A stretch of 19,911 nt of DNA from a bacterium. Lineage in GTDB: Bacteria > Vulcanimicrobiota > CADAWZ01. Positions 1 through 15,682 of the stretch are shown piece after piece (position 1 is the first letter of the stretch; each line of letters opens with the position of its first letter). Below the pieces are notes generated by a model, which searched no databases, was not told the origin of the DNA, and worked only from the letters and a program-made list of their open reading frames with translations. Both the position numbers and the translations under genes were made by a program. Location of the stretch: NCBI GenBank assembly GCA_024409025.1, contig JAKSUM010000002.1, positions 1 to 19,911 of the forward strand, written 5' to 3'.

Positions 1-278
1 AGCGTCGGGCATTTTTCCCGCGCGAGTAACCCATTTTCTGCCGGAGTTTTTCCCAAAAAGTCTATAAATTCTCGGTATTTGTCCATATATTCTGCAGGAA
101 GCCTGTTTCTTGATATATATTCCCGGATATAGTCTTTTTCCATCTGGGATGCTCCCAGATTGGCTATTCGTTTACAGCATACATTACAATTTTCGCATGG
201 ATTGCCGTCATATGATGGGAAAAAGGAATTAAGATTCTCATAAAACGCCGTTATGATTTCATATATCCTGTCGTCCAT
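1..278 (-). CDS. YkgJ-family cysteine-cluster protein (partial, C-terminus missing)
   Basis: The reading frame starts at the ATG at 278-276 and runs off the left edge, so only about 92 N-terminal residues are present. They contain a C-x2-C-x2-C-C cluster (C28, C31, C34, C35), which is the signature of the YkgJ/UPF0153 family. Those proteins are thought to bind zinc or an Fe-S cluster and have no settled biochemical role. The start overlaps the end of the upstream sugar kinase gene by 20 bp, which suggests translational coupling and places it third in the EF-G/kinase operon. The remaining cysteines expected further along lie outside the window. A further Cys just before the edge (KCP) fits the family. 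Family assignment rests on the cluster and its position near the N-terminus. Confidence 0.75.
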   Translation of the reverse strand, partial: MDDRIYEIITAFYENLNSFFPSYDGNPCENCNVCCKRIANLGASQMEKDYIREYISRNRLPAEYMDKYREFIDFLGKTPAENGLLAREKCPT

Positions 279-1203
279 GTATTGCTTTCTCCGTTACTAT
301 ATATTTAAGCATTTTATTGACGTCGGCAGGCGATGCAAGAGCATACATGCTGTTGCATGCGCAGGCAAGTCCGGCTGCTCCGGATTTTCTGAATGCTTCT
401 TGCGGAGATGTGCCTTTCATTCTTTCGGAAATATAATATGCGAACATAGTGTCTCCGCAACAGCAGCACAGGCCTTCTTTTTTGATAATCTGCCTGTTTC
501 TGTAAATTTTGTTTCCGCAGAAAAGCAGAGCGCCCTCATATCCGCCGGATATTATTATTTCCCTTCCTTCATGATTAAATCCGAATGCTTCTATTACATC
601 GTTTATTGATTCGGGAATTGAGCTTAGGGCAGGGGATATTTCCGATAGATTGGCCTTTAAGAACCTGAAGCGTGTATTTAAAGCCTTTTTTATGTCGGCA
701 GGAGACGGATCTAAGGCAAGCAGGGCACCGCGTTTTGCCGCCTCTTCATCGATAAGCTCATAAAAGCTTTTTCCCATTCCTTCAGGAAGAGATCCTCCGG
801 TGTGGAATATATCTCCTTTTGAACAGTGCTGGAGAGCCCAGCTTAATATTGTTTCCTCCTCTGCTTCCGGAAATGACGGGCCTTTTGAGTTGAACTTGTA
901 CCTGATGCCTTCGGAGTCCTCAAAGATTCTGTTCTCCCTTGTCTCTCCGCTTAATTCATACGAGCTGAAAGGTATTCTGTGTTGTTCAAGGAGCTTTAAC
1001 AGCTCTCTTCCCCTAAGGCCGCCTTCCGTGACGAGGGCAGTTGTCCTCATTCCGGCATATATAAGGGCTCTTGAAACATTCACCCCTTTTCCGCCGGGAT
1101 AATGCTTCTCCTCTTCAAGACGGGATATTGTTCCCGCTTTTATTGACTTGGTTTTTGCATATACGTCTATTGCCGGATTAGGGGTGAATGTTACTGTCTT
1201 CAT
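259..1203 (-). CDS. PfkB-family sugar kinase, 1-phosphofructokinase type
   Basis: This 314-residue protein has the usual length of the FruK/LacC branch of the PfkB (ribokinase) family, which phosphorylates fructose-1-phosphate or tagatose-6-phosphate with ATP in the cytoplasm. The N-terminal TPNPAID and the substrate motif GGKGVNVSRAL (GGKG at 37-40) are typical of that branch. The C-terminal ATP/anion-hole motif is odd. Where the family has GAGD, this protein has four consecutive cysteines followed by Gly-Asp (C246-C249, G250, catalytic D251). The catalytic Asp is kept but the first Gly of the motif is lost. The start lies 6 bp after the EF-G stop, with no clear ribosome binding site, so coupling to EF-G translation is likely. 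The stop is TGA and overlaps the next gene. No PTS or transcription regulator gene is adjacent, so the true substrate cannot be told. Confidence 0.85.
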   Translation of the reverse strand: MKTVTFTPNPAIDVYAKTKSIKAGTISRLEEEKHYPGGKGVNVSRALIYAGMRTTALVTEGGLRGRELLKLLEQHRIPFSSYELSGETRENRIFEDSEGIRYKFNSKGPSFPEAEEETILSWALQHCSKGDIFHTGGSLPEGMGKSFYELIDEEAAKRGALLALDPSPADIKKALNTRFRFLKANLSEISPALSSIPESINDVIEAFGFNHEGREIIISGGYEGALLFCGNKIYRNRQIIKKEGLCCCCGDTMFAYYISERMKGTSPQEAFRKSGAAGLACACNSMYALASPADVNKMLKYIVTEKAIHGRQDI

Positions 1204-1209
1204 GATTTG

Positions 1210-3282
1210 TTATTTCTTTTTTGAAGCGGCTTCCTTTATGACTTCTTCCGCCATAGATTCCGGAAGAGGCTCATAGCGGTGGAATTCCATTGAGAAGTTG
1301 GCTCTTCCGCTGCTGAGGCTTCTGAGGGATGTCGCATATCCGAACATTTCCTTGAGCGGCACTGTCCCGTTGATTTTCTGAGAGCCTTTTCTGAATCTTC
1401 TCATGCTGGAGATTTTTCCTCTTCTTCTGTTTACGTCTCCTATGATGTCTCCAAGATACTCGTCAGGCGAGTTGATCTCTATTTTCATTATGGGCTCGAG
1501 CAGTACAGGCGATGCATGTCTGAAAGCATCCTTGAATGCCATTGAGCCGCATGTTCTGAATGCCATTTCCGATGAGTCGACTGCATGGTAGGAGCCGTCG
1601 AGAAGCACTGCCTTGACATCGACAACAGGATATTTCGCAAGCGTTCCTTCGTTGAGCGCATCGACAATGCCTTTTTCTATTGCCGGTATGTATTCCCTTG
1701 GGACTACGCCACCCTTGACAACCTCGCTGAACTCGAATTCTTTTCCGGGATTCGGCTCGATTCTGATGACGGCATGGGCATACTGGCCTTTTCCGCCTGA
1801 CTGCTTTGAATACTTCATGTTTGACGTGGCTTCCGTTGTTATTGTCTCTCTGTATGAGATTGACGGCTGGCCTGTCTCGACATTGACCTTGAATTCTGTT
1901 CTGACTCTGTCTATGATGATTTCAAGGTGAAGCTCGCCCATTCCGGAGATGATGGCTTCTTCTGTCTCTTCATCAAAATGGAATGTGAATGAGGGATCTT
2001 CAAGCAGAAGTTTTTTCAGTGCTATTCCGAGCTTGTCCCTCTCCTGTCTGGAGTTTACTACCGCCTTGACACTTATTACTGCGGGAGGTACGGTAATGTT
2101 TTCGAGCATGATAGGGGCGTCAACTGCACAGAGCGAATCTCCTGTTGTCGTTACCTTCATTCCGATGAGGGCAATGATGTCGCCTGCTGAAGCCTCTTCA
2201 ACTTCTTCCCTGTCCTTTGCGAATATGCGGAGTATTCTGCCTATTCTTTCTTTTTTCTTTTTTGTTGAATTCCAAATTGTGTCTCCGGTCTTTATCGTGC
2301 CGGAGTAAATTCTTACGAATGTCTGCTGGCCTACAAATGGATCATGTATGATCTTGAATGCAAGACCTGCGAACGGGGCTGAAGCAGTGGGCTGGCGGAC
2401 AAGATTCTTTTCCCTGTCATCAGGATCGGTTCCGACTATTTTTCCTGCCTGTATAGGATCGGGGAGATAGTCAACGATGGCATCGAGGAGAGGCTGTATG
2501 CCGATGTTTCTGTAGGCTGCTCCACAGAATACAGGCGTGATATGGCCTTTCTGTACGCATTCGGCTGTTATTTTTCATATCAGCTGTGGGGTTATTGCCT
2601 CGTCGTTTCCGTCAAGGAACATCTCGAGCAGTTCGTCATTATATTCTGCGATTTTTTCAATGAGGATTCCGCGGTATTTTTTTGCGTTTTCCATAAGGAA
2701 ATCGGGAATATCAACTATATCATTGTGGCCTTCCTTGTAGGATATAAGCTTCATGTCAACGAGATCCACCATGCCGCAGAAATCTTCGCCGTCATACCAC
2801 GGAATCTGATATCTGACGGGATTTGCTCCAAGCATGTCGTCCATCATCTCCACGCAGCGGTCGAAATCCGCTCCTTCGAGGTCCATTTTATTTACGAATG
2901 CAATATGTGGAGTCCCGAATTTCTGAGACTGGTTCCATACTGTTTCCGACTGTGGCTGGACTCCTCCTACCGCACAGAATACGGCCACAACTCCGTCAAG
3001 TACTCTGAGAGATCTCTCAACTTCAAGCATGAAGTCCACATGTCCGGGGGTGTCTATGAGGTTAAGCCTGTGTTCACGCCAGTTGCAGCATATTGCTGCC
3101 GAGGCTATGGTGATGCCTCTTTCCTGTTCCTGTTTCATAAAATCCATTGTAGCTTCGCCGTTATGGACTTCGCCGAGCTTGCGGAGGAATCCGGTGTAGA
3201 ATAGTATGCGCTCGGATACGGTTGTTTTACCTGCGTCGATATGGGCTATAATGCCGAAATTTCTTGTTTTGTTAAGTGACAT
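1210..3282 (-). pseudogene. fusA: Elongation factor G, full length but interrupted by one in-frame TGA
   Basis: EF-G is the GTPase that moves tRNAs and mRNA through the ribosome. In some bacteria a second copy acts in ribosome recycling. From the ATG at 3282 to the TAA at 1210 the frame has 690 codons, the normal EF-G length, with no frameshift. G-domain motifs are intact: AHIDAGKT (13-20), DTPGH (77-81) and NKMD (131-134). Codon 236 (2575-2577) is TGA. It lies in the helical insert of the G domain, just before the conserved ITPVFCGAA strand. The rest, covering domains II to V, is intact and well conserved. If TGA stops translation, only a 235-residue fragment is made. There is no rpsL, rpsG or tuf beside it, so this is probably not the str-operon copy. 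The gene has a consensus promoter but no strong Shine-Dalgarno. It could be a recent nonsense mutation in a paralog, a sequencing error, or a readthrough site. Confidence 0.85.
2575..2577 (-). other. In-frame TGA inside the EF-G gene (codon 236)
   Basis: The minus strand reads CTG ATA TGA AAA ATA at this point. Frame before and after is the same, and sequence similarity to EF-G continues on both sides. By my alignment from memory, E. coli EF-G has Lys here and Thermus a hydrophobic residue, so the position is variable. A one-base change from AGA or CGA (Arg) would give the TGA. No selenocysteine is expected at this site. Confidence 0.8.
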
Positions 3283-3333: not shown

Positions 3334-3362
3334 ATTATACTATTTTTTGAATTTTTTGTCAA
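3334..3362 (-). promoter_or_regulatory. Sigma-70-type promoter of the EF-G operon
   Basis: On the minus strand TTGACA (3362-3357) is followed by exactly 17 bases and then TATAAT (3339-3334). Both hexamers match the consensus perfectly. The -10 element lies about 50 bases before the EF-G start codon. No transcription factor site is obvious beside it. A promoter this strong suggests that the EF-G, kinase and YkgJ-type genes are well expressed. Confidence 0.85.
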
Positions 3363-3551: not shown

Positions 3552-5348
3552 ATGAATATATCCAATTCGGCTAACGCATCCGCTCTTACGGGTGCAGTGG
3601 TATATACTGCTCAGAAGACTTCTCCAGATCAGTCTGCAGTTCTTCCCAATATTCCTGAAGGGGCTTCCTTCTCATCTGACAGCATATCTCTTAGCGATGC
3701 GGCGGGAGTGGAGCTTGCCGCCCAGTCTGAAGCTCTGACTGAAGGAGGAAATTCAATTTCCTTTGATTCCTTTTTGTCTGATGTCTTGGTTCCTGCCAAG
3801 CAGGAAAAGATAGTTTTGAAGGGTACTGCGGAAGCCGACAGCTGGTCTATATCCAGAAAGGATGACGGGACATATGACGTGTCTCTTAATGGAGAGATAA
3901 CCAATTATTCTGAGGAAGATGCAAAAAGGCTTGTATTTAATTTGGGATCCGGAAATAATATTTTTGAAGCTGCCGAGAATGTTGGAATAGATCTTACTGT
4001 AAATGCGGGCAACGGCGACAACAGAATTACTGGCGGATCCGGAAATGACACTATATTTGCAGGTAAGGGCAATAATGTTATAGACGGCGGAGCCGGAAAT
4101 GACAGAATTACCGCAGGGAATGGCCATAATGTAATAAACGGCGGAGACGGGAATGACGTCATAAAGGTTAGAAACGGGAATAATTCAATTAGCGGCGGAG
4201 CCGGTGATGACATTATAAACGCAGGAACCGGAAATAATGAGATCCATGGTAATGACGGAGATGACATAATCAGAACTGCCGGCGGAGATTCCAAGCTTTA
4301 CGGAGAAGGCGGAAACGACTATATTGAAGGCGGATCCGGCAATGACGTAATATATGGCGGCGATGGCAATGACGTTATATACGGGCTTGGTGGCAATGAT
4401 TCCATATACGGAGGCGACGGCAACGACTATATTGACGGCGGAGCCGGCGATGACAGGATATACGGCGGAGCCGGGAAGGATATACTTTCCGGAGGCAGAG
4501 GCAAGGATGTAATATCCGGAGGAGCCGGCAAGGATGTAGTCATTGATGATGCCGCAGATATTTCGGATGCGGAGAGAAAGTCAAGCAAGATCTATGAGCT
4601 ACCTGCTGAAGGAACTTTTGGGTCCTCTGTAAGGGCAGATGACAGATCGAGCGCGAATTTCATAGAAAGGCTTGATTCGGATAAAACTACTCTATCGGCA
4701 CTTCCTTCCGGAAAAGCTATTCTTGAGGGAATTGACAAATCCGGACATACCGTAACTGTAAAGCAGGAGCCTGATGAGTATAAGAATGGCGGAGCGGCAC
4801 CTGTCAATTTTGAGGACTCGATCGTTAAAAGTGACGGATCTGCAAATGTCGGTTCAGATTCTAAAGTAAATATCAATCCTTCCTTCTCACTTAACGGATA
4901 TTCCAAGGATGCTGCTCCTCCGTCAGTTGTTTTAGGTCATGAGCTTGTACATGCCTATAATAATGCGACAGGCACAAATCTTAACGGATACTCGACGACA
5001 TTTAATAATAGTGACGGAACAAAGCACACTGCCGCCCCTCTGAGCACGGGTGTATTGCCAGGTTTATATGCCGGATATCAGGATGCTCTTGAACAGGCTG
5101 CAGGAGGAGTTATGGAAAAGGCTGGCGAGCTTCAGGCTGTCGGACTTCCTATGAATGCCGAAAATCTGGTTCATATTGATTTAGTGGATCATGGCTTTCG
5201 AGTCTCTTTCCCTAATGTTAATGAAGCCGGATTCTCTGCTGTTTCATACCCTGACGGAACAGTATCTCTTAACAACCCTGAGGGAATAAGCGAGAACGCT
5301 CTCAGAAGCGATCTCGGTCTTGCCCCCAGAGAGACCTACGGAAGATAA
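3552..5348 (+). CDS. RTX beta-roll protein with C-terminal M91-like zinc metallopeptidase domain (RTX-1)
   Basis: The 598-residue protein has three parts. Residues 1-87 are Ser/Ala-rich with no signal peptide. Residues 88-135 form a module shared with the other two RTX proteins here. Residues about 131-335 are a long run of GGxGxDxI-type nonapeptides, the calcium-binding beta-roll of type I-secreted proteins. The C-terminal ~220 residues carry HELVH at 463-467 followed by AYNN, a distal ELQAVGLP (E526, candidate third zinc ligand) and a tail NALRSDLG. This order (NPSFS, HExxHAY, QAVGLP, ENxxRxDLG) resembles family M91, known from the type III effectors NleD and HopH1, which cleave host proteins. 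What substrate this one cuts is unknown. No ABC/HlyD/TolC exporter is in the window. The gene is monocistronic, with its own promoter and terminator. The M91 call comes from motif memory. The HExxH and beta-roll are seen directly. Confidence 0.8.
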   Translation: MNISNSANASALTGAVVYTAQKTSPDQSAVLPNIPEGASFSSDSISLSDAAGVELAAQSEALTEGGNSISFDSFLSDVLVPAKQEKIVLKGTAEADSWSISRKDDGTYDVSLNGEITNYSEEDAKRLVFNLGSGNNIFEAAENVGIDLTVNAGNGDNRITGGSGNDTIFAGKGNNVIDGGAGNDRITAGNGHNVINGGDGNDVIKVRNGNNSISGGAGDDIINAGTGNNEIHGNDGDDIIRTAGGDSKLYGEGGNDYIEGGSGNDVIYGGDGNDVIYGLGGNDSIYGGDGNDYIDGGAGDDRIYGGAGKDILSGGRGKDVISGGAGKDVVIDDAADISDAERKSSKIYELPAEGTFGSSVRADDRSSANFIERLDSDKTTLSALPSGKAILEGIDKSGHTVTVKQEPDEYKNGGAAPVNFEDSIVKSDGSANVGSDSKVNINPSFSLNGYSKDAAPPSVVLGHELVHAYNNATGTNLNGYSTTFNNSDGTKHTAAPLSTGVLPGLYAGYQDALEQAAGGVMEKAGELQAVGLPMNAENLVHIDLVDHGFRVSFPNVNEAGFSAVSYPDGTVSLNNPEGISENALRSDLGLAPRETYGR

Positions 5349-5605: not shown

Positions 5606-7675
5606 ATGCTTAAATTTTTCGCCCAGCTTCTCGTCGGAGCTTTTGTTCTTGGAATAACCTCAATTCCTGCTTTTGCGGCTGAGGGAATGTGGACTTTCGA
5701 CAATATACCCGTAAAGGCAATTAAGCAGAAATACGGCTTTGAGCCCACACAGGAATGGATTGACAACGTGCGTCTTTCAAGCGTCAGGTTTAATGACGGC
5801 GGAAGCGGATCCTTTATAACGCCTACTGGTCTTGTCATAACCAACCATCATGTTGCGGTAGGTCAGCTTCAGAAGATGTCCTCGGAAAAAAAGGACTATG
5901 TCAAGGACGGTTTCTATGCTTCTTCTGTCGAAAAGGAAGTCCCTTGCAAGGATTTGGAGCTTAATGTTCTTGTTGATATGGAAAATGTCACGTCAAGGGT
6001 TCAGGCTTCATGCAATGGTCTAAAGGGCGGAGACGCTGTTAAGGCAAGAAAGGCTGAGATTGCCAAGATAGAAAAAGAGGGACTGAAAAAGACAGGGCTT
6101 CTTTCGCAGGTGGTTTCCCTTTATGGAGGCGGAGAATACTGGCTTTATTCATATAAAAAATATCAGGATGTCAGACTAGTCATGGCTCCTGAAAAGCAGG
6201 CTGCTTTCTTTGGCGGCAGCAGTGATAATTTCACATATCCCAGATATGATCTCGACTATGCCGTATTCAGGGTATATGAGAATGGCAAGCCTCTTGAAAA
6301 TAAGAATTATATGAGAATGAATCCTGAAGGCGCAAAGAACGGTGAGCTTGTCTTCATAACAGGACATCCCGGAACCACCCTCAGGGATCTCACATATTCT
6401 CAGGTACTGTTCAACAGGGACGTAAAGTATCCGGTCAGACTTGATTCAATAGATTCGGCCCTTAAGGCTCTTTATGAATATTCGGCAATAGGTCCGGAGC
6501 AGAAGAGAAGGGCAGCCACCAATATTTTCTATCTTGAGAATTCAAAGAAGGCCCTTGGCTCGGAATATGAAGGCCTGAAAAAAGCTGAATTTACGGATAT
6601 CCTCAAAAATAAGGAAGCCGAGCTTATTAAGAAGATTGATGCGGATCCTAAGCTTAAGAAGGATACGGGCAGCGCTTTTGAGGATGTCGAAAAGGCTATG
6701 AAGCTCTATGGAAGCAGGTATGAGAAGATTGCCTATTCATATATAGTCGGATACAGGCTTCCAAAGACGGCCTTCAGCATTGTGTTCTACGCAATGGAGA
6801 CTGTGAAGCCTGACGGGGAAAGGATAAACGGATATCATGATTCGCAGCTTGAGACATGGAAATATGTAAACTTCTCTCCGGCTCCTGTCTATGATGATCT
6901 TGAAAAGGCAATGCTTAAATGCGAGCTTGAGGAAACTCTCAAAAAGCTCGGTCCGGATGATCCTGTCGTAAAAATCGCGCTTGACGGAAAGACTCCTGAA
7001 GCCCGGGCGGAGGAGCTTATATCCGGAACAAAGCTTAAATCCGTTGAATACAGAAAGCAGCTTGCTGAAGGCGGAATGGATGCTGTCAGAAACAGCGAAG
7101 ATCCTCTTATTAAGTTCGCCCTTAAGCTTGCCCCTATAGTCCAGTCTAATATTAAATGGTCTGAAAAAAATGTCGAATCAGTCCTTGTTCCGGCAAAGGA
7201 AAAGATAGCCGCCGCAAAATTCGCAGTATACGGAAAGAGCGTATATCCTGATGCCACATTTACCCTCAGACTCAGCTATGGTGAAGTAAAAAATTACGAG
7301 ATGAACGGCACGTTTGCTCCGCCTTACACGACATTCTACGGACTTTTTGACCGCTGGCTCGGATTTGGCGGCGAAGGTGACTGGACTGTTCCTGAGTCGA
7401 TAAAGAAGAATGCTTCGAAGATCAATCTTTCGACTCCCTTAAATTTTGTTTCGGATAATGACATAACAGGCGGAAATTCAGGTTCTCCGGTCGTCAATGC
7501 AAAGGGAGAGGTTATCGGAGTTGTTTTTGACGGCAATATAGAGAGCCTTCCCGGAAGATTCGTTTACGATGAAAAGGCTAACAGGGCTGTTTCTGTACAT
7601 GCCGGCGGAATCATCGAGTCAATGAAGAACGTATACGGAGCTGAAAAGCTTGTTAATGAAATATTAGGAAAATAA
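5606..7675 (+). CDS. Family S46 dipeptidyl-peptidase (DPP7/DPP11-like), exported
   Basis: Family S46 enzymes are periplasmic serine exopeptidases that release dipeptides from the N-terminus of oligopeptides and feed amino-acid-using, often asaccharolytic, bacteria. The 689-residue length is normal. A signal peptide of about 24 residues ends in AFA before AEG. The chymotrypsin-type triad can be placed: H82 in TNHHV, D217 in DLDYAVF, and S625 in GGNSGSP. Eighteen residues after the Ser is G643 (VVFDG). In the family this position is Gly in DPP7, which prefers hydrophobic P1 residues, and Arg in DPP11, which prefers acidic ones. I therefore infer a DPP7-like preference. The gene opens a co-directional run and ends TAATAA, 19 bp before the adenosine deaminase gene. 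The ribosome binding site (AAAGGAT) is moderate. Confidence 0.93.
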   Translation: MLKFFAQLLVGAFVLGITSIPAFAAEGMWTFDNIPVKAIKQKYGFEPTQEWIDNVRLSSVRFNDGGSGSFITPTGLVITNHHVAVGQLQKMSSEKKDYVKDGFYASSVEKEVPCKDLELNVLVDMENVTSRVQASCNGLKGGDAVKARKAEIAKIEKEGLKKTGLLSQVVSLYGGGEYWLYSYKKYQDVRLVMAPEKQAAFFGGSSDNFTYPRYDLDYAVFRVYENGKPLENKNYMRMNPEGAKNGELVFITGHPGTTLRDLTYSQVLFNRDVKYPVRLDSIDSALKALYEYSAIGPEQKRRAATNIFYLENSKKALGSEYEGLKKAEFTDILKNKEAELIKKIDADPKLKKDTGSAFEDVEKAMKLYGSRYEKIAYSYIVGYRLPKTAFSIVFYAMETVKPDGERINGYHDSQLETWKYVNFSPAPVYDDLEKAMLKCELEETLKKLGPDDPVVKIALDGKTPEARAEELISGTKLKSVEYRKQLAEGGMDAVRNSEDPLIKFALKLAPIVQSNIKWSEKNVESVLVPAKEKIAAAKFAVYGKSVYPDATFTLRLSYGEVKNYEMNGTFAPPYTTFYGLFDRWLGFGGEGDWTVPESIKKNASKINLSTPLNFVSDNDITGGNSGSPVVNAKGEVIGVVFDGNIESLPGRFVYDEKANRAVSVHAGGIIESMKNVYGAEKLVNEILGK

Positions 7676-8988: not shown

Positions 8989-10308
8989 ATGTCAAAGCTG
9001 AATGTGCCTGGCAAACAGGCTGTCCATGCTACTTTTGAAGGAGCTAAGGCCGTTGCCCTGTCTCCGATTCAGGAGCTCAGAAGAACCGTAATGGCATGCC
9101 TTCTTTGGGAGAGCGGTTTTTATGAGTCCGGAAAGGATATTGCCGATCGCATAGCCTCTCTCGTTCCCTTGGTAAAGGAAACAGGCGATCTTGAAAAGAC
9201 AGTGATTGAGGCAAGAAATGACATGCATCTCCGCCATGTTCCGCTTTTTCTCATAAGGGAGATGGCAAGGCATGATAATCATAAGGGAGCAGTTGCCTGT
9301 CTTCTTGAAAAGACCATACAGAGGCCTGACGAGCTTGCGGAGTTTATGGCTATTTACTGGAAGAATGGAAGATGCCCGATATCTGCTCAGGTAAAGAAAG
9401 GGCTTGCTGCCGCTTTCAGAAAATTTGACGAGTACCAGCTTGCAAAATACAACAGAAAGGCTCCTATAAGACTTAGGGATATTCTGTTTTTAGTCCATCC
9501 AAAGCCTGAAAATAAGGGACAGGAGGATATGTGGAGGAGGCTTGCGGAAAGCCGCCTTAATCCCCCTGATACTTGGGAGAGGGCTCTTTCTTCCGGATGC
9601 GGAAAGAAAGAGACTTGGACGAGAATGCTGTCTGAAAAAAAACTTGGCAGTCTGGCTCTTCTCCGCAACCTTAGAAATATGATGGATGCGGAAGTTGATT
9701 TTGAACTTATAAATTCGGCTATTCTTGCAATGAGTGTTGACAAGATTCTTCCTTTCCGTTTTATAGCGGCGAAGCAGTCGGCAGAAGAATTTGCCCCTGC
9801 CCTTGAAAAGTCTATGCTTAAGTCTCTTGAAGGGACAGCAAAGCTTAAAGGGAGAACTATACTTCTTGTTGACGCCTCTGGATCGATGTATTCGTATGTC
9901 TCTTTCAGGGCTGCAATGTCACGTTTTGACGCATCTCATGGTCTTGCCGTACTTCTCAGGGAAGTATGCGAAAATGTCTCGATATATACTTTTTCCGAAT
10001 ATATAAAGAAGGTTAAAGACGCCAGAGGCTTTGCACTTGTCAGTAATATATCCGCATCACAGCCTGCCGGAGGCACGAAGCTTGGGAAGGCTGTCGAATT
10101 TATAAACAAAAATGAGGACTATGACAGGATTATCGTTCTGACTGACGAGCAGACGGAGGATGCTGTTCCTGATCCTAAGAAGTCCTTGGCTTATATGATA
10201 AATATTGCATCCAGTGCAAATGGGGTTGGGTATGGCGCTTGGACGCATATTGACGGATGGTCGGAGTCCGTCGTTAAATATATATCCGAAATGGCAAAGG
10301 AATTTTAA
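8989..10308 (+). CDS. Ro60/TROVE-domain RNA-binding protein (Rsr-like)
   Basis: Ro60 proteins are ring-shaped RNA chaperones. They bind misfolded non-coding RNAs and Y RNA. The Deinococcus homolog Rsr works with PNPase in RNA decay and stress survival. This protein has an alpha-helical repeat region (about 1-285, TROVE) and a C-terminal von Willebrand A-like domain. The metal site (MIDAS) is complete: D295-x-S297-x-S299 in LLVDASGSM, T363 in GGTKLG and D386 in LTDEQ. At 439 residues it is shorter than human Ro60 (538) and Rsr, with the loss in the helical region. There is no strong ribosome binding site (GAAAG only). The next gene begins 7 bp after its stop, so they share an mRNA. No rtcB, rtcA or PNPase gene is adjacent and I found no Y RNA. 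Confidence 0.88.
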   Translation: MSKLNVPGKQAVHATFEGAKAVALSPIQELRRTVMACLLWESGFYESGKDIADRIASLVPLVKETGDLEKTVIEARNDMHLRHVPLFLIREMARHDNHKGAVACLLEKTIQRPDELAEFMAIYWKNGRCPISAQVKKGLAAAFRKFDEYQLAKYNRKAPIRLRDILFLVHPKPENKGQEDMWRRLAESRLNPPDTWERALSSGCGKKETWTRMLSEKKLGSLALLRNLRNMMDAEVDFELINSAILAMSVDKILPFRFIAAKQSAEEFAPALEKSMLKSLEGTAKLKGRTILLVDASGSMYSYVSFRAAMSRFDASHGLAVLLREVCENVSIYTFSEYIKKVKDARGFALVSNISASQPAGGTKLGKAVEFINKNEDYDRIIVLTDEQTEDAVPDPKKSLAYMINIASSANGVGYGAWTHIDGWSESVVKYISEMAKEF

Positions 10309-12424: not shown

Positions 12425-13816
12425 TTAGGAGGCAGAGCTTTCTTTTGAAGAGCTGCTTGATGAGGCGTTGTCGCTTGGCTTGTTTTCAGATACCTGTTTT
12501 GAGAGATCATAATTATTGCCTTCGCCGCTTACTTTATTGTCTCCCCTGAGGGTCAGAGTGCTGTCATTTTTTTCTGTTTTGACATTATTTGTTCCGCCGT
12601 TTATGACTGTCTGATCCTTATCTGTTTCCTTGGATATGCCTATGGAATTGGAGTTTCTGCCTGTGTTTATGTCGTTTTTTCCACCGTTAACAATAATTGA
12701 GTCTTTCCCGCTTCCTGCTGTGACATCGTTTTTGCCGTCATTAATTTTTAATGTGTCGTTTCCTCTGCCGGTATCGACTTTATTGTTTCCGCCGTTAATT
12801 ACGACTTCATCGTTGTCCTTTGTGGAGGGAGTTATAGGGTTCATGTTAGTCCCTATTATATTGGGATTGATGTAGGGCCTTGGGTTTATGCCTCTGTCAT
12901 TATCAAAAATGCTCTCGTTTCCGGTTTTTATATCATTGTTACCGTCTTCTGCATATACATAGTCATTGCCGTTCCCTGTATTTACTTTGTTATCGCCGCC
13001 GTAAATATATGCGCTGTCTTCTCCGTCGCCTGTTTTTACTTTGTTATCTCCGCCAAATACTACAACGCCGTCATTGCCATCGCCGGTATTTACATTGTTT
13101 TTGCCGTCATTTACGATTACAAAATCATCGCCGTCTCCGGTATCGATGTCATTGACTCCGCCATGAGTAACAACGCTGTCATCGCCGGCTCCTGTTTTTA
13201 TGCTTGATGAATCGGCATTAATGTCTATGTCATTGTTGCCGTCTCCTGTCTGGATGTTTACTCTTTCAGCATCCTCTGCGGTTATGTCATTGTTTCCGTT
13301 TCCTGTTGTGACGATGCTTCTGCCGTTTCCGAGATCTATCTTATTGTCGCCTTCTCCTGCCTCTATGACTGTCGTCGCGTCGATTCCTGAGAGATCTATT
13401 TCGTCATTTCCGTCTCCGGCATTGATTTTTACTCCGTTTCTGAGCTCTTCCTTGCTGTATGTCTGCTCTTCGCCGTTTACTGTGAATGTGACGCTTCCGT
13501 CTTCATTTGTTCTTGCTGTGATTTCGTCTTCTCCATCAGTGCCGTTGATTTCAATCATTTCTTCCAGCATTTCTTCGGACATTGTGAAATCATCGCATTC
13601 CTGCTCAAACTGCTGCCATTCTTCGCTTGTCTTGCCTGTTCCGCCATGAAGCTTATCTTTGAGATCTTCGATATTGGCATCCGCTTTTTTGCCTGCGAGC
13701 TGCGTGTCAAGAGATATTTTTCCGTTTTGGAGAAGTTCGAGCAGCTCCTGCATCTCTCTGGCTCTCTGAAACTGCTCTATGTAGTTGGATATGCCCATAA
13801 GATTAGAATAATCCAT
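12425..13816 (-). CDS. RTX-like beta-roll protein without a protease domain (RTX-2)
   Basis: The 463-residue protein starts with about 90 mostly helical, charged residues (LLELLQ, MLEEMIEI). It then has the module shared with the other two RTX proteins (about 90-130, NEDGS, VNGEE, YSKEE). Residues about 131-435 are degenerate repeats of the GDGNDxIxI / GGxNxVxTG type in units of roughly 18-20 residues. A non-repetitive Pro/Asn-rich linker sits near 290-325. It ends in a low-complexity tail rich in Ser (SSSSSSKESSAS). There is no signal peptide and no HExxH. Many calcium-ligand Asp positions are Asn. It may be a structural or adhesive surface protein, or a protease paralog that has lost its catalytic end. 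AAAGGAG precedes the ATG by 8 bases. The 240-bp gap upstream is AT-rich with a lone -10-like TATAAT (13861-13856) and no convincing -35. Confidence 0.78.
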   Translation of the reverse strand: MDYSNLMGISNYIEQFQRAREMQELLELLQNGKISLDTQLAGKKADANIEDLKDKLHGGTGKTSEEWQQFEQECDDFTMSEEMLEEMIEINGTDGEDEITARTNEDGSVTFTVNGEEQTYSKEELRNGVKINAGDGNDEIDLSGIDATTVIEAGEGDNKIDLGNGRSIVTTGNGNNDITAEDAERVNIQTGDGNNDIDINADSSSIKTGAGDDSVVTHGGVNDIDTGDGDDFVIVNDGKNNVNTGDGNDGVVVFGGDNKVKTGDGEDSAYIYGGDNKVNTGNGNDYVYAEDGNNDIKTGNESIFDNDRGINPRPYINPNIIGTNMNPITPSTKDNDEVVINGGNNKVDTGRGNDTLKINDGKNDVTAGSGKDSIIVNGGKNDINTGRNSNSIGISKETDKDQTVINGGTNNVKTEKNDSTLTLRGDNKVSGEGNNYDLSKQVSENKPSDNASSSSSSKESSAS

Positions 13817-14056: not shown

Positions 14057-15619
14057 TTAATATCTTGTTCTTTGATCTATGCCGAGATCTTTTCTGAATG
14101 CGTTTTCAGTAAGAAGCTCCGGATTTGCGGATGTTTTTGTTCCGTCAGGATGCTTTGTCTCTATTCCGCCCGGTATCGGCAGACCTACTGCCTGATGCTC
14201 TGCTGCCTTTACGAGGGTGCCGTCTTTTCTTTTAAGCATGCCCGGCTGCATTGTTCCTGTGACGTCGTTATATGCATGGACTCCTTCATGGAAAAGCACT
14301 GTTGACGGAGGAGCGGTATTTTCGCCCTGAACAAGTGAGAATGACGGATTTAGTAATATTTCAGCATCGCTTCCTTTGCCTCTTTTGCCTTTTTCGCTTA
14401 CGTACTTGTCCTCATAATGTTTGGATGTCGCACTTGCATATCCGTTGGCATCTCCAGTTTCCTTTATGGATGTTTTCTTTTTAGCCTTATCAAGCTCGGA
14501 GAGAAGCTTGGTGCCGCTTTCAGTGCCCTTATATGTCTCAATGTCTGATTCTATTCTCATTTTGAAAGCGTCATCGCCCTCTATTTTTATTGAAGATCCT
14601 AATGAGGACTTTGCATCACTGTCGTAAAGGCTTATGTCGGCTCCTTCTGCTTTTATATTTTTTCCGTTTCCGTCATCTATTATTTTTCCGGATCCTGATG
14701 TTTCTATTTTATCATCGCCTTTTCCGCCTGAGATTATATTTTTACCGCTTCCCGCTTTGATTTCGTCATCGCCTTTTCCGCCGTCAATATAATTTTTGCC
14801 ATTTCCTGCGGTGATTTTGTCATTGCCGTCAAGACCGTATATTACGTTATTTCCGTTACCGGCAGTGATTGTATCTGTTCCTGCTCCGCCTTGTATATAG
14901 TTGTTGCCGTTACCGGCTTTTACTGTGTTTTCTCCGTTTCCGGCATATATTTTTGTATTTCCGTTACCTGTTGTTATTGAATCGTTGCCGTTACCTGTAT
15001 GTATTGTTCCGGATGCATTGCCTATTTCTATTGTATTATTGCCGTTACCTGCGACTATAGTGTTATATTCGTTTCCGTCAGCTCCGGCAGAAATGGCATT
15101 GTCGCCGTTACCGAGAGATATGTTTGTCCTGTATGATCCTACGGCCGTAACGCTGTTATTCCCGTCTCCTGCTTTGACTATGTTTCTTCCATAGCCTAAA
15201 TTTATATCGTTATCGCCTTCTCCGGCATTTATAATAAGAGTTGCTCCTATTGATGAAAAGTCTATTGAGTCGTTTCCGTCTCCGGAGCTTACTCTGAAGC
15301 CGTTCATTGCCTCTTGGCTGTCATATACGGTTTCTTGACCGTTGACGCTTACTGTTATGCTTCCGTCTTCATTGCTCCAGGCTCTTATTGCATCGTCTCC
15401 GCCTGTTCCGGTTATCTGGTTCATTGCATTGGCTATTTCCGGAGACTGTATATATTCGTCCGTGCTTTCCATAGCCGTCTGAATATCTGTCAGGGTTGTA
15501 TTTGCAGGCCCGTAATTATTGTTGGCTATTGCTGTTTTTTCGTACTCTGCGATTTTCAATGCATTTGGCTTTTGTATCGCAATATTATTCATGTTTGAGA
15601 GTATGCTGGAAAAATTCAT
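14057..15619 (-). CDS. RTX beta-roll protein with C-terminal M91-like zinc metallopeptidase domain (RTX-3)
   Basis: I chose the ATG at 15619 because AAGGAG (15635-15630) lies 10 bases upstream. The frame is open 14 codons further but without a ribosome binding site. The 520-residue protein parallels RTX-1: N-terminal 70 residues without a signal peptide, a shared module (about 72-118), an Asn/Gly/Asp beta-roll (about 112-325), then a protease-like domain. The latter has LLNPSFSL, HEGVH at 444-448 followed by AYNDVTG, EHQAVGLP (E474), and a tail TENAFRKDLG. Spacing from HExxH to the distal Glu is 30 residues against 63 in RTX-1, which has an insertion there. The repeats often read GNGNN in place of the classical GxGND. 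An exporter is not in the window. The protease assignment is by motif. Secretion by a type I system is inferred from the beta-roll only. Confidence 0.8.
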   Translation of the reverse strand: MNFSSILSNMNNIAIQKPNALKIAEYEKTAIANNNYGPANTTLTDIQTAMESTDEYIQSPEIANAMNQITGTGGDDAIRAWSNEDGSITVSVNGQETVYDSQEAMNGFRVSSGDGNDSIDFSSIGATLIINAGEGDNDINLGYGRNIVKAGDGNNSVTAVGSYRTNISLGNGDNAISAGADGNEYNTIVAGNGNNTIEIGNASGTIHTGNGNDSITTGNGNTKIYAGNGENTVKAGNGNNYIQGGAGTDTITAGNGNNVIYGLDGNDKITAGNGKNYIDGGKGDDEIKAGSGKNIISGGKGDDKIETSGSGKIIDDGNGKNIKAEGADISLYDSDAKSSLGSSIKIEGDDAFKMRIESDIETYKGTESGTKLLSELDKAKKKTSIKETGDANGYASATSKHYEDKYVSEKGKRGKGSDAEILLNPSFSLVQGENTAPPSTVLFHEGVHAYNDVTGTMQPGMLKRKDGTLVKAAEHQAVGLPIPGGIETKHPDGTKTSANPELLTENAFRKDLGIDQRTRY

Positions 15620-15653
15620 GTGCTGTCGTCTCCTTGATGGATATTTTATTATA

Positions 15654-15682
15654 ATTATCACGTTTTACCTGATTTTAGTCAA
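15654..15682 (-). promoter_or_regulatory. Probable promoter of RTX-3
   Basis: On the minus strand TTGACT (15682-15677), a 17-base spacer and GATAAT (15659-15654) precede the gene, giving a leader of about 30 bases that contains the AAGGAG site. Each hexamer has one mismatch to consensus. Confidence 0.7.

Follow-up and report, generated by a model that had tools for sequence, protein, structure and literature searches.

An EF-G gene broken by a single in-frame TGA raises the question of whether the codon is read through in some way, has disabled the gene, or is a fault of the assembled sequence. In the present study, this question was addressed for the window, i.e. the whole stretch of 19,911 nucleotides that was analysed, which is contig C112 of a bacterial assembly of 1.46 Mb in 256 contigs that is 69% complete. 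The EF-G comparison took in 57 relatives, giving 58 genomes together with this one (G000); G001, G002 and G003 belong to the same family and G004 to the same order.

The interrupted EF-G gene and its neighbourhood

The initial annotation had described one collinear EF-G gene of 690 codons with a TGA only at codon 236, lying under a consensus promoter in a window whose other genes lack internal TGA and only two of which end in TGA, and these observations were confirmed (Table 1). When the whole frame was searched with an X at the stop, GTP_EFTU, domain 2, and domains III, IV and C were found in order; the 235-residue piece gave a partial GTP_EFTU match, and the 316-residue piece, counted from the first start codon past the TGA, has domains III, IV and C. 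The sequence on both sides of the TGA is one EF-G. The RGITI motif stands at residues 55-59, and column 236 is variable, with 7 residues among 13 homologues. None of the 14 other window genes listed from the ORF table has an internal stop of any kind, and pfkB and yvcK are the two that end in TGA among the 13 that end inside the window. Restart of translation at the ATG overlapping the TGA was dismissed, as this ATG is in another frame.

Table 1. Positions of the EF-G gene, its parts and adjoining features in the window
Feature	Position	Strand	Basis
Putative solo EF-G paralogue, 690 codons plus TAA, one interruption	1210..3282	-	Frame reading; P0002, the 99% identical copy without interruption, scores over the TIGR00484 cut-off
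TGA in frame at codon 236, next base A	2575..2577	-	Frame reading
Open N-terminal part of 235 residues; GTPase domain lacking its last part	2578..3282	-	PF00009 matched over profile positions 2-151 of 188; 2-187 when the whole frame is read
C-terminal part past the stop; from its first ATG/GTG/TTG codon, at 2160, 316 residues with domains III, IV and C	1210..2574	-	Sequence and domain search
Promoter-like site TTGACA-17-TATAAT	3334..3362	-	Pattern scan; similar site 5' of the ortholog in 4/4 relatives (2/4 by eye)
pfkB-family sugar kinase, adjoins EF-G	259..1203	-	PF00294

The promoter-like site 5' of the gene matches the consensus at 12 of 12 positions. A scan of 2.6 kb returned 7 promoter-like sites against 3.9 expected by shuffling, and among the scanned sites only this perfect match stands out. 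TTGACA with a near-consensus second hexamer was also recognised 5' of the ortholog, by script pattern in G001 and G004 and by eye in G002 and G003. The ortholog is adjoined by pfkB in G001 and likewise in G002, there after inserted genes (by eye), while the G003 contig is cut, so that the upstream side alone is visible. Motifs of S12, S10 and EF-Tu were found neither in the window nor at the ortholog in G001, G002 and G004; thus, the window EF-G is not in the str operon, the usual location of EFG I according to PMC3150367.

Several other features of these regions were observed. In G002, a detached EF-G 3' piece (residues 621-684, 88% identical) lies on the minus strand at C5:68949-69140 (about 5950-6141 of locus L163), approximately 2 kb from the whole gene, and other frames occur between EF-G and pfkB; this piece would be a partial duplication or an insertion scar. 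The window itself encodes three glycine/asparagine-rich repeat proteins, recognised by eye, at 3552-5348, 12425-13816 and 14057-15661; the first and the third carry PF00353 RTX repeats and a C-terminal Peptidase_M91 domain, and the second has no Pfam match. A TROVE-domain protein is encoded at 8989-10308, with a Ro60-type vWA match slightly below its cut-off.

UGA as a stop codon in this genome

Several lines of evidence bear on how UGA is read. The gene for RF2, prfB, was recovered in pieces, chiefly on C213 and C109; it is split between contigs, and none of its 4 matches is over the curated cut-off. At the start of prfB on C213 (L158, 1470-1560), AAAGGAG is followed by CTT TGA C and the frame goes on at +1, an arrangement that PMC12421855 gives as the UGA frameshift site of prfB. 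The C213 match was flagged with one TAA, which probably precedes the slip site and falls in the +1 frame. A sample of 24 of the 256 contigs, with the window among them, amounted to 133,439 bases and gave 101 long frames, all called mechanically; the 92 ends of long frames in it comprised 45 TAA, 25 TGA and 22 TAG. A scan of the same contigs for frames split by single stops, not by frameshifts, returned 21 candidate stops, which were judged by eye except for that of EF-G. Twelve of them, the EF-G stop included, coincide with an open frame of a different phase; of the other nine, eight resemble ordinary gene ends and one is antisense to rpsG and rpsL.

A UCA anticodon was observed in none of the 30 tRNAs of the assembly, 29 of which were read by ARAGORN and the thirtieth, a Leu tRNA with a TAG anticodon, by eye. 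The search for tRNA-Sec returned six matches, none over the cut-off, in a test whose control exceeded the cut-off in just 5 of 14 control genomes; the best match sits on tRNA-Ser(tga). No gene was recognised as SelB among nine PF00009 matches, part of which were identified, in this 69%-complete assembly. A reassigned UGA code, such as table 4, is not what the prfB pieces, the TGA terminators and the tRNAs indicate. Thus, given the prfB pieces with their UGA frameshift site, the use of TGA as a terminator, the lack of a UCA tRNA among those present and the tRNA-Sec matches below the cut-off, UGA behaves as an ordinary stop in this genome, though the assembly lacks about a third of the genome.

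EF-G copies and the placement of the window gene

The importance of the interruption depends on whether the window gene is the only EF-G of the cell, in which case the initial annotation held that recoding would be required. The ortholog has no stop across codon 236 in any of the three same-family genomes (82, 81 and 80% identical to the window EF-G) or in the same-order genome (66%); that of G003 ends at a contig edge past residue 538, with codon 236 covered. Each of G001-G004 has at least three EF-Gs, which fall into a str/S10-region copy, an EFG-II type and the window type. In all four relatives, the EF-G of the str operon is encoded by a different gene from the window type; the two are approximately 48% identical. 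By comparison with these relatives, the window gene is not the housekeeping fusA. The suggestion of a second EF-G is in keeping with these four relatives, and the notion of an only EF-G, set aside on the paralogue searches, the contig ends and the relatives, gives no support to a need for recoding.

Another fusA in a str operon is present in all four relatives. In this genome, rpsL (PF00164) and rpsG (by eye) are found on C38, a contig that ends 71 bases past rpsG, and the distance from rpsG to the start of the fusA frame in G001-G003 is about 140 to 320 bases; the str fusA is not seen here because C38 ends before it would start. Ribosomal protein L3 was likewise not found in this assembly and was found in 14 of 14 control genomes. 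The missing str fusA is most plausibly due to a gap in the assembly rather than to the biology of the organism. The EFG-II type is represented in this genome by a fragment on C210, a partial EF-G that groups with the EFG-II type in a quick tree. On the 5' side of this fragment, an S1 RNA-binding domain (PF00575; L015, 7340-7529, minus strand) is joined to it in frame at the end of the contig, in the place expected for the GTPase domain. This S1 piece has a single occurrence in the assembly, and the join is probably one of assembly rather than a real fusion.

A close counterpart of the window gene was found in a collection of 5.8 billion proteins, in which the 8,000 candidates sharing most words were scored and the best 120 considered. 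The top match, P0002, is an uninterrupted EF-G of 690 residues from a single contig of 10,884 bases of another source (code lgn); it is 99% identical to the window EF-G, with eight residue differences besides the stop. When twelve outgroups were compared, one of these eight sites was clearly derived in the window EF-G, and two or three were ambiguous; in the quick tree, the window end branch is 0.00087 and that of P0002 0.013. In a second search of the same scope, made with the 235-residue piece, the truncated form is absent among the 120 matches listed, the best of which is 80% identical; this is weak evidence, since the window's own 235-residue piece is likewise not among them, and the collection may not hold this assembly.

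For family placement, P0002 was used rather than the interrupted window frame, and its score of 933.4 bits against TIGR00484 (EFG I) is over the cut-off of 659.4; an EFG-II type paralogue also passes (756.6), so this model does not separate the types. A link to the Bacteroides EF-G2 was rejected, P0002 scoring 473.5 bits against NF058620, where the cut-off is 1000. PMC3150367 describes a three-residue KDG insertion in switch I for spdEFG1, reports some members without it, and describes EFG II as lacking the RGITI motif. No KDG was seen by eye before RGITI in the window EF-G, in an alignment that contained no spdEFG1 reference; RGITI is present, and the EFG-II type paralogues form a separate branch. 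The three EF-G types separate in the quick tree, and the window type groups with EF-Gs of Spirochaetota, Bacteroidota, Chlorobiota and Ignavibacteriota, apart from the relatives' str copies. This tree had 45 rows, none a named spdEFG2 reference, and a long-branch warning on the EFG-II rows; it took in 26 of the 79 named loci L049-L127, chosen by number, together with 3 of the 25 loci L023-L047, from which a crude filter on motifs had removed the others. None of the 79 named loci, many of which are short, showed an S12, EF-Tu or S10 motif, and one showed the S7 pattern. Among four str loci used as controls for these motifs, S12 and S10 were recovered in all four, EF-Tu in one and the S7 pattern in none, and S7 was not relied on.

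On these grounds, the best description of the window EF-G would be a solo, EFG I-like paralogue. It resembles EFG I in that P0002 passes the TIGR00484 cut-off, in its RGITI motif and in its near full-length alignment to solved bacterial EF-Gs; however, it is not beside str genes and stands apart from its own relatives' str copies in the tree. An extra EF-G outside the str operon is also known from the EF-G1A/EF-G1B pair of P. aeruginosa, but PMC3832671 gives that pair as 84% identical, compared with approximately 48% for the window type and the relatives' str copies. The relatives have at least three EF-G types, one of them solo with a consensus-like promoter that is conserved, which is a modest clue to a possible division of labour among EF-Gs.

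Readings of the codon-236 TGA

Herein, we favour, with a probability of about 0.5, a private nonsense mutation of very recent origin as the source of the TGA, in a solo EF-G paralogue that is spare, because the relatives have two other EF-G types, UGA behaves as an ordinary stop and a near-identical copy is uninterrupted. The paralogue would be transcribed from its consensus promoter, and ribosomes would terminate at codon 236 to yield a 235-residue fragment. Having neither the end of the GTPase domain nor the later domains, such a fragment would make this a null allele, and normal translocation would be carried out by the str-operon fusA that the contig ends before. A long history of decay was discounted: codon positions 1, 2 and 3 show identities to G001-G003 of 0.85-0.86, 0.90-0.91 and 0.42-0.44, respectively, no sign of decay is visible before or after the TGA, and there is little private change on the window branch. 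What counts against a real mutation is this same paucity, so little private change that a nonsense mutation would look like an error, and an error is nearly as likely. If the consensus base is wrong, the living organism has an uninterrupted gene. This would fit the existence of P0002, the little private change, the intact promoter and motifs, and a fragmented, 69%-complete assembly of metagenome type that contains an odd join such as that of the S1 domain and the EFG-II piece at the end of C210. However, a consensus base is normally backed by most reads, and the 133,439 sampled bases yielded no second gene recognisably broken by one stop, in a survey that judged most candidates by eye and covered single stops only; a base error is quite conceivable, if slightly less probable than a recent nonsense mutation. 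Both the recent nonsense mutation in a second EF-G and the base error, as offered by the initial annotation, thus survive side by side, whereas the required recoding that it raised for an only EF-G is unsupported. The further proposal that AGA or CGA at codon 236 in reads or close relatives would make the TGA a sequence error is too strong a rule, since an intact near-identical copy fits a strain-level nonsense mutation and a base error equally. In metagenome-assembled genomes, nonsense alleles at the strain level and errors of assembly similarly show one disrupting codon with intact flanks; the window EF-G differs in being otherwise fully preserved.

Reading of the UGA as sense is less credible in each of its forms. 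In leaky readthrough, a near-cognate tRNA would read the UGA at a low level, and the amount of full-length EF-G would be tied to the level of RF2. The UGA is followed by A, a context quoted in PMC5289835 as prone to misreading by tRNA-Trp in E. coli; many inserted residues might be tolerated at the variable column 236, and the remainder of the gene and its promoter are intact. Low-level readthrough is thus possible as judged from the codon and its context, but any fresh nonsense mutation would have the same appearance, and since neither the near-identical copy nor any ortholog among the matches listed has a stop at 236, there is no sign of selection for readthrough, which we consider improbable as an explanation. 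It is very improbable that, by way of this leaky context at a variable position, the paralogue is a low-dose product tied to the RF2 level; if true, scarce RF2 would increase readthrough and a second translocase would appear. Programmed recoding by selenocysteine, a suppressor tRNA or a genome-wide reassignment of UGA is scarcely credible. Its support is the intact flanks of the stop and nothing else, and against it stand the prfB pieces with their own UGA frameshift site, TGA as the terminator of 25 of 92 frames, the 30 tRNAs without a UCA anticodon, the tRNA-Sec search with 0 of 6 matches over the cut-off, the nine partly identified PF00009 matches without a recognised SelB, and the sense residue of the relatives at codon 236. 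The view that a global code change is unlikely therefore holds on the prfB, terminator and tRNA evidence, and no suppressor tRNA with a UCA anticodon is among the 30 tRNAs of this 69%-complete assembly.

Thus, the stop at codon 236 appears to be a single mutation of an ordinary kind or an error in one base, without any novel reading of the code, and it matters only if it is real and read through. In a partial assembly, a lone in-frame stop means little, even in a gene that looks essential, until paralogues and near-identical copies have been checked. EF-G matches with an internal stop were found in at least 3 of the 58 genomes, namely G000 and two others of the same phylum, G009 (C174) with a TAA and G034 (C11) with a TAG.
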